Origin: Spirochaetaceae bacterium
GTDB lineage: Bacteria; Spirochaetota; Spirochaetia; CADAEX01
Direction of reading: 5' to 3'
NCBI GenBank assembly: GCA_009780675.1
Contig: WQZP01000020.1
Location: 1-45,703, forward strand
DNA: 45,703 nt
The notes below the pieces were generated by a model, which was given only the letters and a program-made list of their open reading frames with translations, ran no database searches and was not told the DNA's origin. A program made the position numbers and the translations under genes. Shown piece by piece: positions 22,126 through 26,589 of the stretch. Numbering within the stretch: position 1 is the stretch's first letter; the number at the start of each line of letters is the position of its first letter.

Positions 22126-22192
22126 ATCGGGGTATAAAAAAAGAACAATAGTTGAGAAAAAATTATAAAAAGATATAATTTTTCAATGTATT

Positions 22193-22236
22193 AAAAGAGC
22201 TGTCCAGGACAAAACAGTCGGACAGCTCTTTTTTTA
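22193..22236 (+). terminator. Rho-independent terminator of the V-ATPase operon
   Basis: AAAAGAGCTGTCC (22193-22205) pairs perfectly with GGACAGCTCTTTT (22220-22232) around a 14-base loop. A run of T continues to 22236. It lies about 70 bases after the atpK stop. Confidence 0.93.
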
Positions 22237-22302
22237 TACAGCAAGGAAAAAAGGGCAGGGGAGCGCCTGCCTAATTGTATAGCATTATATTATTAAAAAT
22301 AT

Positions 22303-22331
22303 TACACTGGTGTATGAAAAATAATACACCA
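22303..22331. promoter_or_regulatory. Half-site array upstream of the sigma-54 promoter
   Basis: Three related half-sites lie in 29 bases. They are TACAC (22303-22307), GTGTA (22310-22314) and TACAC (22325-22329). TGGTGTAT and ATACACCA form a perfect 8-bp dyad with an 8-base centre. The array is about 115-140 bases upstream of the predicted transcript start, the usual place for an enhancer-binding activator of sigma-54. Confidence 0.6.
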
Positions 22332-22418
22332 CTCCAATCTGCTTATTAATCATGGTTTCTATCTCTTGGTAACTCTTTATATTATAAGCAATTATTTTAA
22401 TTAAAAAAATATTAAACA

Positions 22419-22434
22419 TGGCACAAAAATTGCA
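22419..22434 (+). promoter_or_regulatory. Sigma-54 (-24/-12) promoter
   Basis: TGGCAC at 22419-22424, five A and TTGCA at 22430-22434 match the sigma-54 consensus TGGCACR-N4-TTGCW at every fixed position. The GG and GC pairs are separated by the required 10 bases. The start would be near 22445, about 29 bases before the TTG start codon of the next gene. Confidence 0.85.
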
Positions 22435-22473
22435 TAATAGTTATTAATTACTAAATAAATATTGGAGTGACTT

Positions 22474-23100
22474 TTGAATAATTTACTAGCTGGTATTACT
22501 GCAAAAGCTTTTCCGAAAAGTATTCTGGAATTAAGAACAGAATTATTCAGGAAAAGTCTTCATATGCTTATAGCGATGATTCCAATGATAGCTGCAATTG
22601 ACAAAGGCATTGCGTTTGCTCTTCTTTCTGTAGGGGCGATTATATATACTTACTCAGAAATTTTAAGGGGAAAAGGGTATAGCCTTATATATATATCAGA
22701 TTTTAAAAATTTTGGATTAAGAGAAAAAGAAAAAAATTGCTTTGCAGGAGGGCCTGTTACTCTTGCTCTTGGCGCAATGGCTGCTCTTCTTTTTTATCCA
22801 TCAGATATAGCAAAAATTGCTATCTATGCTCTTGCATTTGGAGATGGCTTTGCAAGTCTTGTAGGAAAAGTTTTTGGCACAATTAAAATACCTTTTACAG
22901 GTGGAAAAACTCTTGAGGGAAGCATGGCTTGTTTTTTTGCTGTGTTGCTTTCAACATATACTGTTACATCAAATATTGGTGTTTCTTTTGCAACAGCTTT
23001 GACAGTTATGATAGCAGAAGCATTTCCTCTTGGTGATTATGATAATTTTATTATTCCTGTAGTTGCAGGCACAACAGCTTTTTTAATGCTTGGGGCATAA
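22474..23100 (+). CDS. Polyprenol/dolichol-kinase-like integral membrane protein
   Basis: This is a 208-residue membrane protein of the SEC59/DGK1/VTE5 group, enzymes that phosphorylate polyprenols, diacylglycerol or phytol with CTP and are related to phosphatidate cytidylyltransferases. About six hydrophobic segments are present. The conserved motifs GDGFASLVGKVFG near residue 128 and GGKTLEGSMA near residue 147 match the family's substrate and CTP site. The start is TTG with GGAG upstream. It is transcribed from a predicted sigma-54 promoter, separate from the V-ATPase operon. The real substrate is unknown; undecaprenol or diacylglycerol are likely choices. Confidence 0.82.
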   Translation: MNNLLAGITAKAFPKSILELRTELFRKSLHMLIAMIPMIAAIDKGIAFALLSVGAIIYTYSEILRGKGYSLIYISDFKNFGLREKEKNCFAGGPVTLALGAMAALLFYPSDIAKIAIYALAFGDGFASLVGKVFGTIKIPFTGGKTLEGSMACFFAVLLSTYTVTSNIGVSFATALTVMIAEAFPLGDYDNFIIPVVAGTTAFLMLGA

Positions 23101-23992: not shown

Positions 23993-24670
23993 ATGCGGAA
24001 AATATCAATGGTGGTTCTGTTTATTTTAGCAGGAGCACAATTTCTTTTAGCAGGTGACATTGCTAATTATGTAAATATCGGATTTTCCGGAGATTCACGC
24101 TACTTTATGTTTGCGCAGTATGGTGTGACAGGTACGGAGACATATTCAGATATATTTGCTGTAGATGTTATAAATAACAGATTTGTTACAAATGGTATTA
24201 ATAGGCAGAGACACCCTATTAGAGCTCATTCAATGGACAATGGTTCAGGCGCTTTCCTTAGAGGTTTACTTGCATCAAATCCAGTTATTCAAAGAATTGG
24301 AATAGATCCTCTATTAAAAGGGCGCTACATATATGTAAATATAAATAGCGGTCCTGTACATGATATTGAATTTCGTGATTTTAGAACAGGAAAAACATAT
24401 AGAATAAATTTACGGGAAAGAAGCGAAAACAGAGCTGGTGTTTATGAATCATCATTTTCTTTAAATATTCTTGTTACACAGGAAGGCGCTCCTGCCAGAG
24501 TATATTCTGCTGGTTCTCCAAGCATTGTAAGAAGAGGGGTAAAAGGTTATAGCATTAGAAGTGTTTTTCTTTCTCCAAATGAACAAAATATGGTACTTGT
24601 TATTGAAAGAACTGAAGTTGATAGAGGTTCTGTCTCCATAAGATATATGGTTGAGACATTACCTTTGTAG
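23993..24670 (+). CDS. Predicted secreted protein, DUF2259-like
   Basis: This is an exported protein of 225 residues with a signal peptide of about 20 residues (hydrophobic core MVVLFILAGAQFLLAG) and a beta-rich body. The opening after the signal, NYVNIGFSGDSRYFMFAQYGV, fits the DUF2259 family of predicted secreted proteins, common in treponemes; the assignment is from memory of the pattern. A good GGAAGG site lies before the ATG. The function is unknown. It leads a run of three same-strand genes for exported proteins. Confidence 0.75.
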   Translation: MRKISMVVLFILAGAQFLLAGDIANYVNIGFSGDSRYFMFAQYGVTGTETYSDIFAVDVINNRFVTNGINRQRHPIRAHSMDNGSGAFLRGLLASNPVIQRIGIDPLLKGRYIYVNINSGPVHDIEFRDFRTGKTYRINLRERSENRAGVYESSFSLNILVTQEGAPARVYSAGSPSIVRRGVKGYSIRSVFLSPNEQNMVLVIERTEVDRGSVSIRYMVETLPL

Positions 24671-24680
24671 TAATAAAAAA

Positions 24681-25886
24681 ATGATAGAACACATTTGTGG
24701 AATAAACGCTTTGTTACCCCGCAAATTTGCTGCGGAACAGCGGCGAAGCCACATATCCAAAGTTCTGCTATGGAGTGTATTATCTATTTTGCTTTTTTCT
24801 TTTCTGCAAACAGGGTGCTCGAAAAGACCAGAAATACTTTCTCATGGCGAAGAAGTATATATATATCCTGTCTCAATTTTTTTATTACCCCCTGCACATG
24901 GGGAAGAATGGTTTTATAATGTTAAAGATTTTTCAATAATTACAATGCAGGCAAGACCTCTTATTCCATGGCCCCAGGCTATAAGGATCACAGATATAGC
25001 AGAAACAGAAAATGGAACAATAGTTATTTTAATAAATAGAAAAGGTGTTGTTAGCGTTTGCAGTAATAATGAAGGAGCGCCATTTTGCGGGTCTGAATTT
25101 TTTTCAACAAAAATAACAAATGAAAGTCTTGCTAAATTTACATCTGGCAAAATAATTACAGACAATAATTTTATTTTATGCCATATCTATGCTGATACTT
25201 TTTTTAATGACAATTTTTATGTGCCGCTGTCCCCTTTTATTAAAATTGATATTGATAATAAAAAAAGTATACACAGCCAGCATAATTACCCTGCTATTAT
25301 TAATGATTTTTCACTTATAAATCTTAAAAAAAGAGATGGTAACTGGTTCTCTGCGTGGAAAAAAGTAGATGCCCATGCAACAGTGTTTAAATATTTTATG
25401 CATAATAGTTCTTTGGGTGAGAATGCAATAGAAATAGCAGAATCAAGATTTAAACAGGCCAACTGGTTTTTAAATAATAGCAGTTTATCCGATAGCATAA
25501 AAAAGTTTATTTCAAATATTGCAAAAGCTGAAATAGATAACAATTATATTATTGAAGTTGAGTTAAGAAGCAAAGATAATCCGGTTGTTACAACATATTT
25601 ACTGGGAACAGCAGGAAGCAATAGCAATCATTTTGAAAAAATGTGTATCGCAATAGAGGAAGAAAAACATTTTATTTCTTATAAAGGGAAGATATATTTT
25701 ATTGAAAATGACAGTTTATATCTTCTTTCTGGGGTTGAAAAACTTCCGCCCAATTTCAGATACACTGTATTATATGCTTCCGGGGGAATACTTTATGCAG
25801 CATGGGAAGAGCAGAGCTTTTTTCTTACTGGAGCTTCTGGTCTTACAATAATAGATAAAAAAAGGGTTGATAAAATTCTGCAATAG
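24681..25886 (+). CDS. Predicted lipoprotein, unknown
   Basis: I do not recognise the family. From the ATG at 24681 it has 401 residues. A hydrophobic segment ends in the lipobox LQTGC with Cys46. The 25 or so residues before the hydrophobic part are unusually long, and they are partly encoded by a GC-richer palindrome-like stretch (24716-24750), so the true start may be later, or a repeat may have been inserted. No clear ribosome-binding site is visible. The body looks beta-rich. Its end overlaps the leader of the next gene, and the two probably form one transcript. Confidence 0.75.
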   Translation: MIEHICGINALLPRKFAAEQRRSHISKVLLWSVLSILLFSFLQTGCSKRPEILSHGEEVYIYPVSIFLLPPAHGEEWFYNVKDFSIITMQARPLIPWPQAIRITDIAETENGTIVILINRKGVVSVCSNNEGAPFCGSEFFSTKITNESLAKFTSGKIITDNNFILCHIYADTFFNDNFYVPLSPFIKIDIDNKKSIHSQHNYPAIINDFSLINLKKRDGNWFSAWKKVDAHATVFKYFMHNSSLGENAIEIAESRFKQANWFLNNSSLSDSIKKFISNIAKAEIDNNYIIEVELRSKDNPVVTTYLLGTAGSNSNHFEKMCIAIEEEKHFISYKGKIYFIENDSLYLLSGVEKLPPNFRYTVLYASGGILYAAWEEQSFFLTGASGLTIIDKKRVDKILQ

Positions 25887-25893
25887 TAATTTA

Positions 25894-26589
25894 ATGAAAA
25901 AGATGCTTTATAAAAGATTGGTTCTATTTTTAACTTTATTTTTTCTCACTTTTACGCTTTATGGATTTAATTTCGAATCATACGGCATAAGAGGCGGAGT
26001 TATGTATATCAGGAATACGCACGAGGATAGCGCTCCTTCGCCAGTACTCCCATTTATTGGGGCAAATGTTGGTTTTTCTTTTGGAAGATTTTCTTTCATT
26101 GAGCCTGCTGTTGAGCCTTCTATTACTTTTACCAGGAGTGAACATTTTTGGGCAGAAGATTTGCAAATGGCATTGCCTGCTGAAATCGAATATGCTGATG
26201 CTATTCGATTTTTAAACATTGTTCTTGATTGCCCTCTTATTATAAAATTCACGCTAAAAGAAAATATTGCTTTAGGCGTTTTTGCTGGTCCGGCTATTAT
26301 TATTAGAGTTCCTCTAAAAGCATGGGGGGAAGGGGATTCGCACAGAGCAGATATGTTATCTTATTTTTATGGTGAAAGGTTCTTTTATGCTGAAGTTGGA
26401 GTTCTTTTTGATTGGGTCTATTCTCCAAGACATTCGTTTAAAGCAAGGCTTGATGCATTACTGCCTGTTGATCAGCTGGCAATAAGAGCAAGCGTAACAT
26501 TTTCTTTTATGACTAAAAGCGCTCAGCAGAGAAGAGCTGCTCTTGCACAAGCTTCCACAACAATTGATACTGATACTACTCAAGAATAG
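25894..26589 (+). CDS. Predicted outer-membrane or periplasmic beta protein
   Basis: This is a predicted exported protein of 231 residues starting at the ATG at 25894, 7 bases after the previous stop. A signal peptide of about 22 residues ends near TLYGFNFES. The body alternates polar and hydrophobic residues with many Gly and aromatic residues (YGIRGGVMYIR, IGANVGFSFGRFSF, ASVTFSFM), the pattern of a small eight-strand beta-barrel. A short Ala/Thr-rich tail follows the last strand, unusual for a barrel that ends in Phe. The family is not recognised. Confidence 0.72.
   Translation: MKKMLYKRLVLFLTLFFLTFTLYGFNFESYGIRGGVMYIRNTHEDSAPSPVLPFIGANVGFSFGRFSFIEPAVEPSITFTRSEHFWAEDLQMALPAEIEYADAIRFLNIVLDCPLIIKFTLKENIALGVFAGPAIIIRVPLKAWGEGDSHRADMLSYFYGERFFYAEVGVLFDWVYSPRHSFKARLDALLPVDQLAIRASVTFSFMTKSAQQRRAALAQASTTIDTDTTQE

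Follow-up and report, generated by a model that had tools for sequence, protein, structure and literature searches.

The kinase-like gene and its upstream region

The window analyzed here is a whole contig of 45,703 nucleotides (G000:C20) from a Spirochaetaceae genome of 2.4 Mb that is 99% complete (G000). A gene for a predicted 208-residue integral-membrane kinase-like protein of the CTP-transferase/dolichol-phytol kinase type is located on the forward strand at positions 22474-23100 and starts with TTG. The V-ATPase operon upstream ends on the same strand at an intrinsic terminator (22193-22236), in which a 13-bp perfect inverted repeat (22193-22205/22220-22232) is followed by a T run; the stretch 22190-22240 has a predicted fold of -22.7 kcal/mol. 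The strength of this terminator implies that the kinase gene needs a promoter of its own. An intergenic forward-strand sigma-54 promoter, TGGCACAAAAATTGCA (22419-22434), was found about 40 bp 5' of the TTG start, with no mismatch to TGGCACN5TTGCW and with both the GG at -24 (G at 22421) and the GC at -12 (C at 22433). Transcription is predicted to start at 22445 on the forward strand, 12 bp past the -12 C, which would give a leader of 29 nt carrying a ribosome-binding site, GGAGTG (22464-22469, forward strand).

Two further forward-strand elements precede the promoter. The distal one is an inverted repeat, GTGTAT-N8-ATACAC (22310-22329), centered at about -125.5, within the range of approximately 80-200 bp upstream in which activator sites of sigma-54 promoters are located, and it is a candidate enhancer-binding-protein site. 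The earlier note had described an array of three half-sites here, TACAC (22303-22307), GTGTA (22310-22314), and TACAC (22325-22329), at approximately -143 to -117 relative to the predicted start. The positions are correct and the GTGTA/TACAC combination is conserved as one inverted pair; the first TACAC (forward strand) is changed to TGCAC and TGTAA in two relatives and probably lies outside the site. The second element, overlooked in that note, is a 25-bp palindrome, TAACTCTTTATATTATAAGCAATTA (22370-22394), between the distal repeat and the -24 element and centered at about -63, at which a second dimeric regulator may bind.

Kinase upstream regions of three species of the same genus were aligned, namely G000 and two metagenome bins labeled Spirochaetaceae/Spirochaetes, WRFK01 and WQTU01 (protein identity 81% and 73%, respectively), which, judging by isolate names, we take to be termite-gut samples. 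The -24/-12 element is invariant at 13 of 16 positions, with the orthologous sites reading TGGCACAAATATTGCA and TGGCATGAAAATTGCA in the two relatives from the genus in which the gene is present. All 19 core bases of the distal repeat GTGTATGAAAAATAATACA and 21 of the 25 palindrome positions are also invariant, against a background of 10/40 between the distal repeat and the palindrome and 34/157 in the terminator region. The three elements are thus conserved islands amid diverged flanks. The TTG start is kept in the relatives, and the ribosome-binding site has the equivalent GAGGTG in both. In the sister genus, orthologues of the kinase gene lie in a different neighborhood and lack such a promoter.

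The sigma-54 promoter had been called in the earlier note from the one sequence and made dependent on conservation of its -24/-12 element in related species. With the position and sequence of the perfect site kept in two related species, this comparison indicates that the promoter was correctly called, on stronger grounds than that sequence alone could offer. The retention of the -24/-12 element and the distal repeat in both relatives, together with the RpoN and three enhancer-binding proteins encoded by G000, supports the view that the sigma-54 promoter is functional and has an activator site upstream.

The window protein had no match in Pfam and NCBIfam, and PF01148 (CTP_transf_1) was matched by four of the eight aligned family members (best 4.4e-5). 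The invariant family residues fall in the motifs F.D..A..VGK..G, K...GS.AC, and E..P..D.DN..IP, which in our judgment recall dolichol/phytol kinases. These features point weakly to a CTP-dependent lipid kinase. An AlphaFold model built from three sequences reached a pLDDT of 37, too low for use; the family profile found no relative among solved structures, and tblastn found no match in plasmid sequences. Use of CTP is likewise suggested by family resemblance, with polyprenol (Und-P salvage) and diacylglycerol (phosphatidate) both possible as substrates. Given these Pfam results, the lipid-carrier recycling proposed in the earlier note is a guess, and conversion of diacylglycerol to phosphatidate is equally possible. 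Further along the window, at 23993-26589, there is a predicted secreted DUF2259 protein and, after it, two open reading frames of 411 and 240 aa that match nothing in Pfam or NCBIfam.

A palindrome and sigma-54 composite promoter

Six perfect sigma-54 sites were found in G000, compared with none for the reversed control pattern; relaxing the search to one mismatch gave 129 matches. Three of the six are intragenic, and the three intergenic ones precede the window kinase gene, an Hsp20 gene, and a gene for a sigma-70-family factor. The palindrome is located 15-24 bp 5' of all three intergenic sites and of none of the three intragenic ones; by a rough binomial estimate, the chance of finding it at three of six sites is approximately 1e-11. 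Across the genus, it stands 14-24 bp 5' of a perfect -24/-12 site before the kinase (three genomes), Hsp20 (three), and sigma-70-family factor genes (two), the last encoding 292 aa in G000 (C11:9627) and G010. A Na/Pi-cotransporter-like gene (three genomes) has the palindrome approximately 35-38 bp 5' of its sigma-54 site. Palindrome centers across the regulon range from -53 to -77. Near the Na/Pi-cotransporter-like locus, G009 and G010 encode a fourth enhancer-binding protein of the receiver type, which was not found in G000.

The composite pattern, defined as the palindrome, 10-40 bp, and a sigma-54 site, was searched in 394 Spirochaetia genomes, and a narrower order-level pattern search covered 11 genomes. 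There were 18 composite matches in 12 of the 394 genomes, compared with three matches for the reversed control. Outside the own genus, ten matches stood against the three of the control (P ~0.001), an excess so small that lone distant matches may be due to chance. The repeated occurrence before the same kinds of gene is the stronger argument: five of the ten precede sigma-70-family genes and two precede Hsp20 genes. The other three precede single-case targets, named from sequence reading as a divergent polysaccharide-deacetylase-like protein, a solute-binding protein, and a TPR protein. The composite-linked sigma factor matches both the RpoD and RpoS models, each below the equivalog cut-off. 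None of the seven sister-genus genomes has a composite promoter, though rpoN is present.

The distal element was also found at other composite promoters. With up to one mismatch allowed, TGTRT-N7/8-AYACA lies 5' of the palindrome at 14 of the 21 composite promoters (mean in shuffles 1.3, maximum 6); it occurs without mismatch at nine (mean 0.06, maximum 1). These figures are generous, since the motif definition drew on some of the promoters counted and promoters of orthologous genes are not independent cases. In G207 and G127, the kinase-type form TGTAT-N8-ATACA also lies before the gene for the sigma factor. The two spacings, N7 and N8, suggest that different activators may act at these promoters.

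In the earlier note, recycling of the lipid carrier had been suggested to be "stress- or nutrient-controlled". The shared promoter architecture before Hsp20 and a sigma-70-family factor supports the stress part indirectly, and no evidence was found for the nutrient part, so that stress appears to fit better. A PAP2 phosphatase gene follows the Hsp20 gene, and its best NCBIfam match is an undecaprenyl-diphosphatase, below the cut-off. A single sigma-54 operon of these two genes, with the kinase as functional partner, was considered and rejected because a strong terminator is located in the gap and different genes stand there in the other two genomes.

The palindrome was also found apart from sigma-54 sites. 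It is located between dnaA and gyrB in G000 (C70; L069:1501-1525) and G010 (C84; L054:1501-1525), so the protein that binds it may have a role close to the replication origin as well. It also lies near a STAS-domain anti-anti-sigma-like gene in three species belonging to the genus (L060:1501-1525, L051:1501-1525, and L057:942-966). AT-rich near-consensus palindromes beside tRNA genes (L073, L068, L071, and L074) are terminator-like and probably not regulatory.

RpoN and the candidate activators

The G000 genome has a single RpoN gene and three genes for clear enhancer-binding proteins. EBP1 (C11) and EBP2 (C7, near rpoN) carry receiver domains, and the EBP1 gene lies approximately 6 kb from the sigma-factor gene on the same contig. 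EBP3 (C14) has AAA+ and Fis domains only, and its gene directly follows an rpsA-like gene. Orthologues of EBP3 of approximately 500-517 aa, also linked to rpsA, were found in G109, G113, G127, G150, G207, G242, and G277. The G109 orthologue (L173), the sole one scanned, has an N-terminal GAF domain. This sensor domain is missing from the rpsA-linked protein in the own genus (L010:1450-2427).

The EBP3 helix IQRTYLSRLIKEL is identical in the own genus, G109, G113, G127, and G207. Of the 12 composite-positive genomes, 10 have EBP3, and none of seven composite-negative relatives does (Fisher P 0.0007); phylogeny confounds this co-occurrence, since all seven negatives belong to one genus. In G299 the composite is present and no clear EBP3 orthologue was found. 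On the strength of its co-occurrence with the composite promoter, EBP3 is the best candidate for the activator of the regulon.

A proposed stress regulon and its relation to known systems

The promoter, its conservation, the common architecture, and the presence of RpoN and a candidate activator can be read directly from the sequences. Taken together, they suggest that the kinase gene probably belongs to an enhancer-dependent sigma-54 stress regulon. In G000 this would be a small regulon comprising the singly transcribed kinase gene, Hsp20, and the sigma-70-family (RpoD/RpoS-like) factor. RNA polymerase with RpoN would be poised at -24/-12, and an activated enhancer-binding protein on the distal repeat would loop over to open the complex, with a second dimeric protein on the palindrome assisting, bending, or gating the loop. 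The activator would most likely be the GAF-type protein encoded after rpsA, in the form without GAF domain that the own genus has. Under stress, the cell would make the membrane kinase along with a chaperone and a second sigma factor, and the kinase would rephosphorylate polyprenol or diacylglycerol and so support envelope repair. We infer the pairing of proteins with sites, the signal, the stress inducibility, and the kinase substrate from these features.

That the sigma-54 match is due to chance and has no function is hardly credible. Half of the perfect genome sites being intragenic would suit such a reading, but two related species have this site conserved in both place and sequence, and its palindrome is common to unrelated genes. 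It is also quite improbable that the kinase gene is mainly transcribed from a sigma-70 promoter with the -24/-12 site minor or decaying: the conserved islands are the -24/-12 element and both upstream elements, and the weak sigma-70-like matches offered by this AT-rich region number four against 2.1 expected, the sole one on the forward strand lying upstream of the terminator.

The assignment of the upstream elements and of the activator is less settled. The palindrome could itself be the enhancer-binding-protein site, with the distal repeat serving another regulator, and it is the more constant of the two, occurring at nearly every composite promoter versus 14/21 for the distal motif. This constancy is partly built in because the composite promoters were partly collected by searching for the palindrome, which moreover is found without a sigma-54 site. 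At several promoters it is centered at -53 to -56, unusually close for activator looping, and the distal repeat, with its TGT...ACA form, is similar to sites known for NifA, NorR, and other activators of the GAF type; we consider this exchange of roles unlikely. Doubtful, yet to be taken seriously, is a regulon driven by a receiver-type activator, EBP1 or EBP2, rather than by the rpsA-linked protein. G000 has just three activators, and EBP1 shares its contig with the sigma-factor gene; however, EBP1 is retained in the sister-genus genomes checked, which are without the composite promoter, and among the proteins compared a close EBP2 orthologue outside the genus was found only in G113.

The proposed regulon, with the rpsA-linked protein acting at the distal repeat, has partial counterparts elsewhere. 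The E. coli ibpB and rpoH genes have sigma-54 promoters, so that a small heat-shock protein and a stress sigma factor receive sigma-54 input there as here. We know of no equivalent palindrome at these promoters, and E. coli is an independent lineage. The closest experimental system is the Rrp2-RpoN-RpoS/BosR cascade of Borrelia burgdorferi, in which a spirochete likewise has a sigma-54 promoter before an alternative sigma-70-family gene (PMC3037356). The BosR protein binds a TAAATTAAAT repeat adjoining the -24/-12 element of rpoS (PMC3037356), and a second DNA-binding protein just 5' of -24/-12, besides the enhancer-binding protein, is the putative arrangement here. The logic is thus alike and the proximal element different: no TAAATTAAAT direct repeat was found next to the -24 element, and the 25-bp palindrome differs in sequence from both that repeat and the Per box (TTATAAT-N-ATTATAA). 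Unlike the Borrelia cascade, the regulon proposed here also has Hsp20 and a membrane lipid kinase. The Leptospira EbpA-RpoN system also pairs a GAF-domain enhancer-binding protein with RpoN in a spirochete, with amtB and lipoprotein genes as targets in a nitrogen context (PMC12655853) instead of a chaperone, a sigma factor, and a lipid kinase.

Prenol kinases acting on dolichol, phytol, and farnesol are represented by SEC59, VTE5, and FOLK (PMC9782597). Relatives of the spirochete protein match PF01148, and the similarity of the window protein to these enzymes is too low for direct assignment. To our knowledge, no spirochete member of this type of kinase has been assayed.

The same two kinds of gene are jointly induced in the core stress response of Treponema denticola, a likeness by kind. 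Under heat, oxygen, and osmotic downshift, the sigma-70-family gene TDE0937 was induced 2.8-, 21.8-, and 14.0-fold and the Hsp20 gene TDE1029 approximately 9.5-, 8.5-, and 6.7-fold, respectively (PMC2965109). This response has no known controller in an organism without homologues of RpoS or sigma-B, and that study proposed a factor of the sigma-70 family; it describes no promoter, a word that does not occur in it (PMC2965109). We tentatively suggest, with less than even confidence, an old general stress circuit of Spirochaetia in which a two-site sigma-54 promoter, with a distal activator site and a proximal 25-bp palindrome bound by a dimeric regulator, drives a sigma-70-family factor and Hsp20, joined by the lipid kinase in some lineages. 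The Borrelia Rrp2/BosR-RpoN-RpoS system would be a derived form of this circuit, which would explain stress control in treponemes such as T. denticola. Since other spirochetes have the composite architecture before a sigma factor of this kind and before Hsp20, it offers a testable controller for a T. denticola-type response, consisting of RpoN, one enhancer-binding protein, and one palindrome binder. If true, the circuit would provide an evolutionary setting for the sigma-54-to-sigma-S cascade of Borrelia and would place a membrane lipid kinase within the same stress response.
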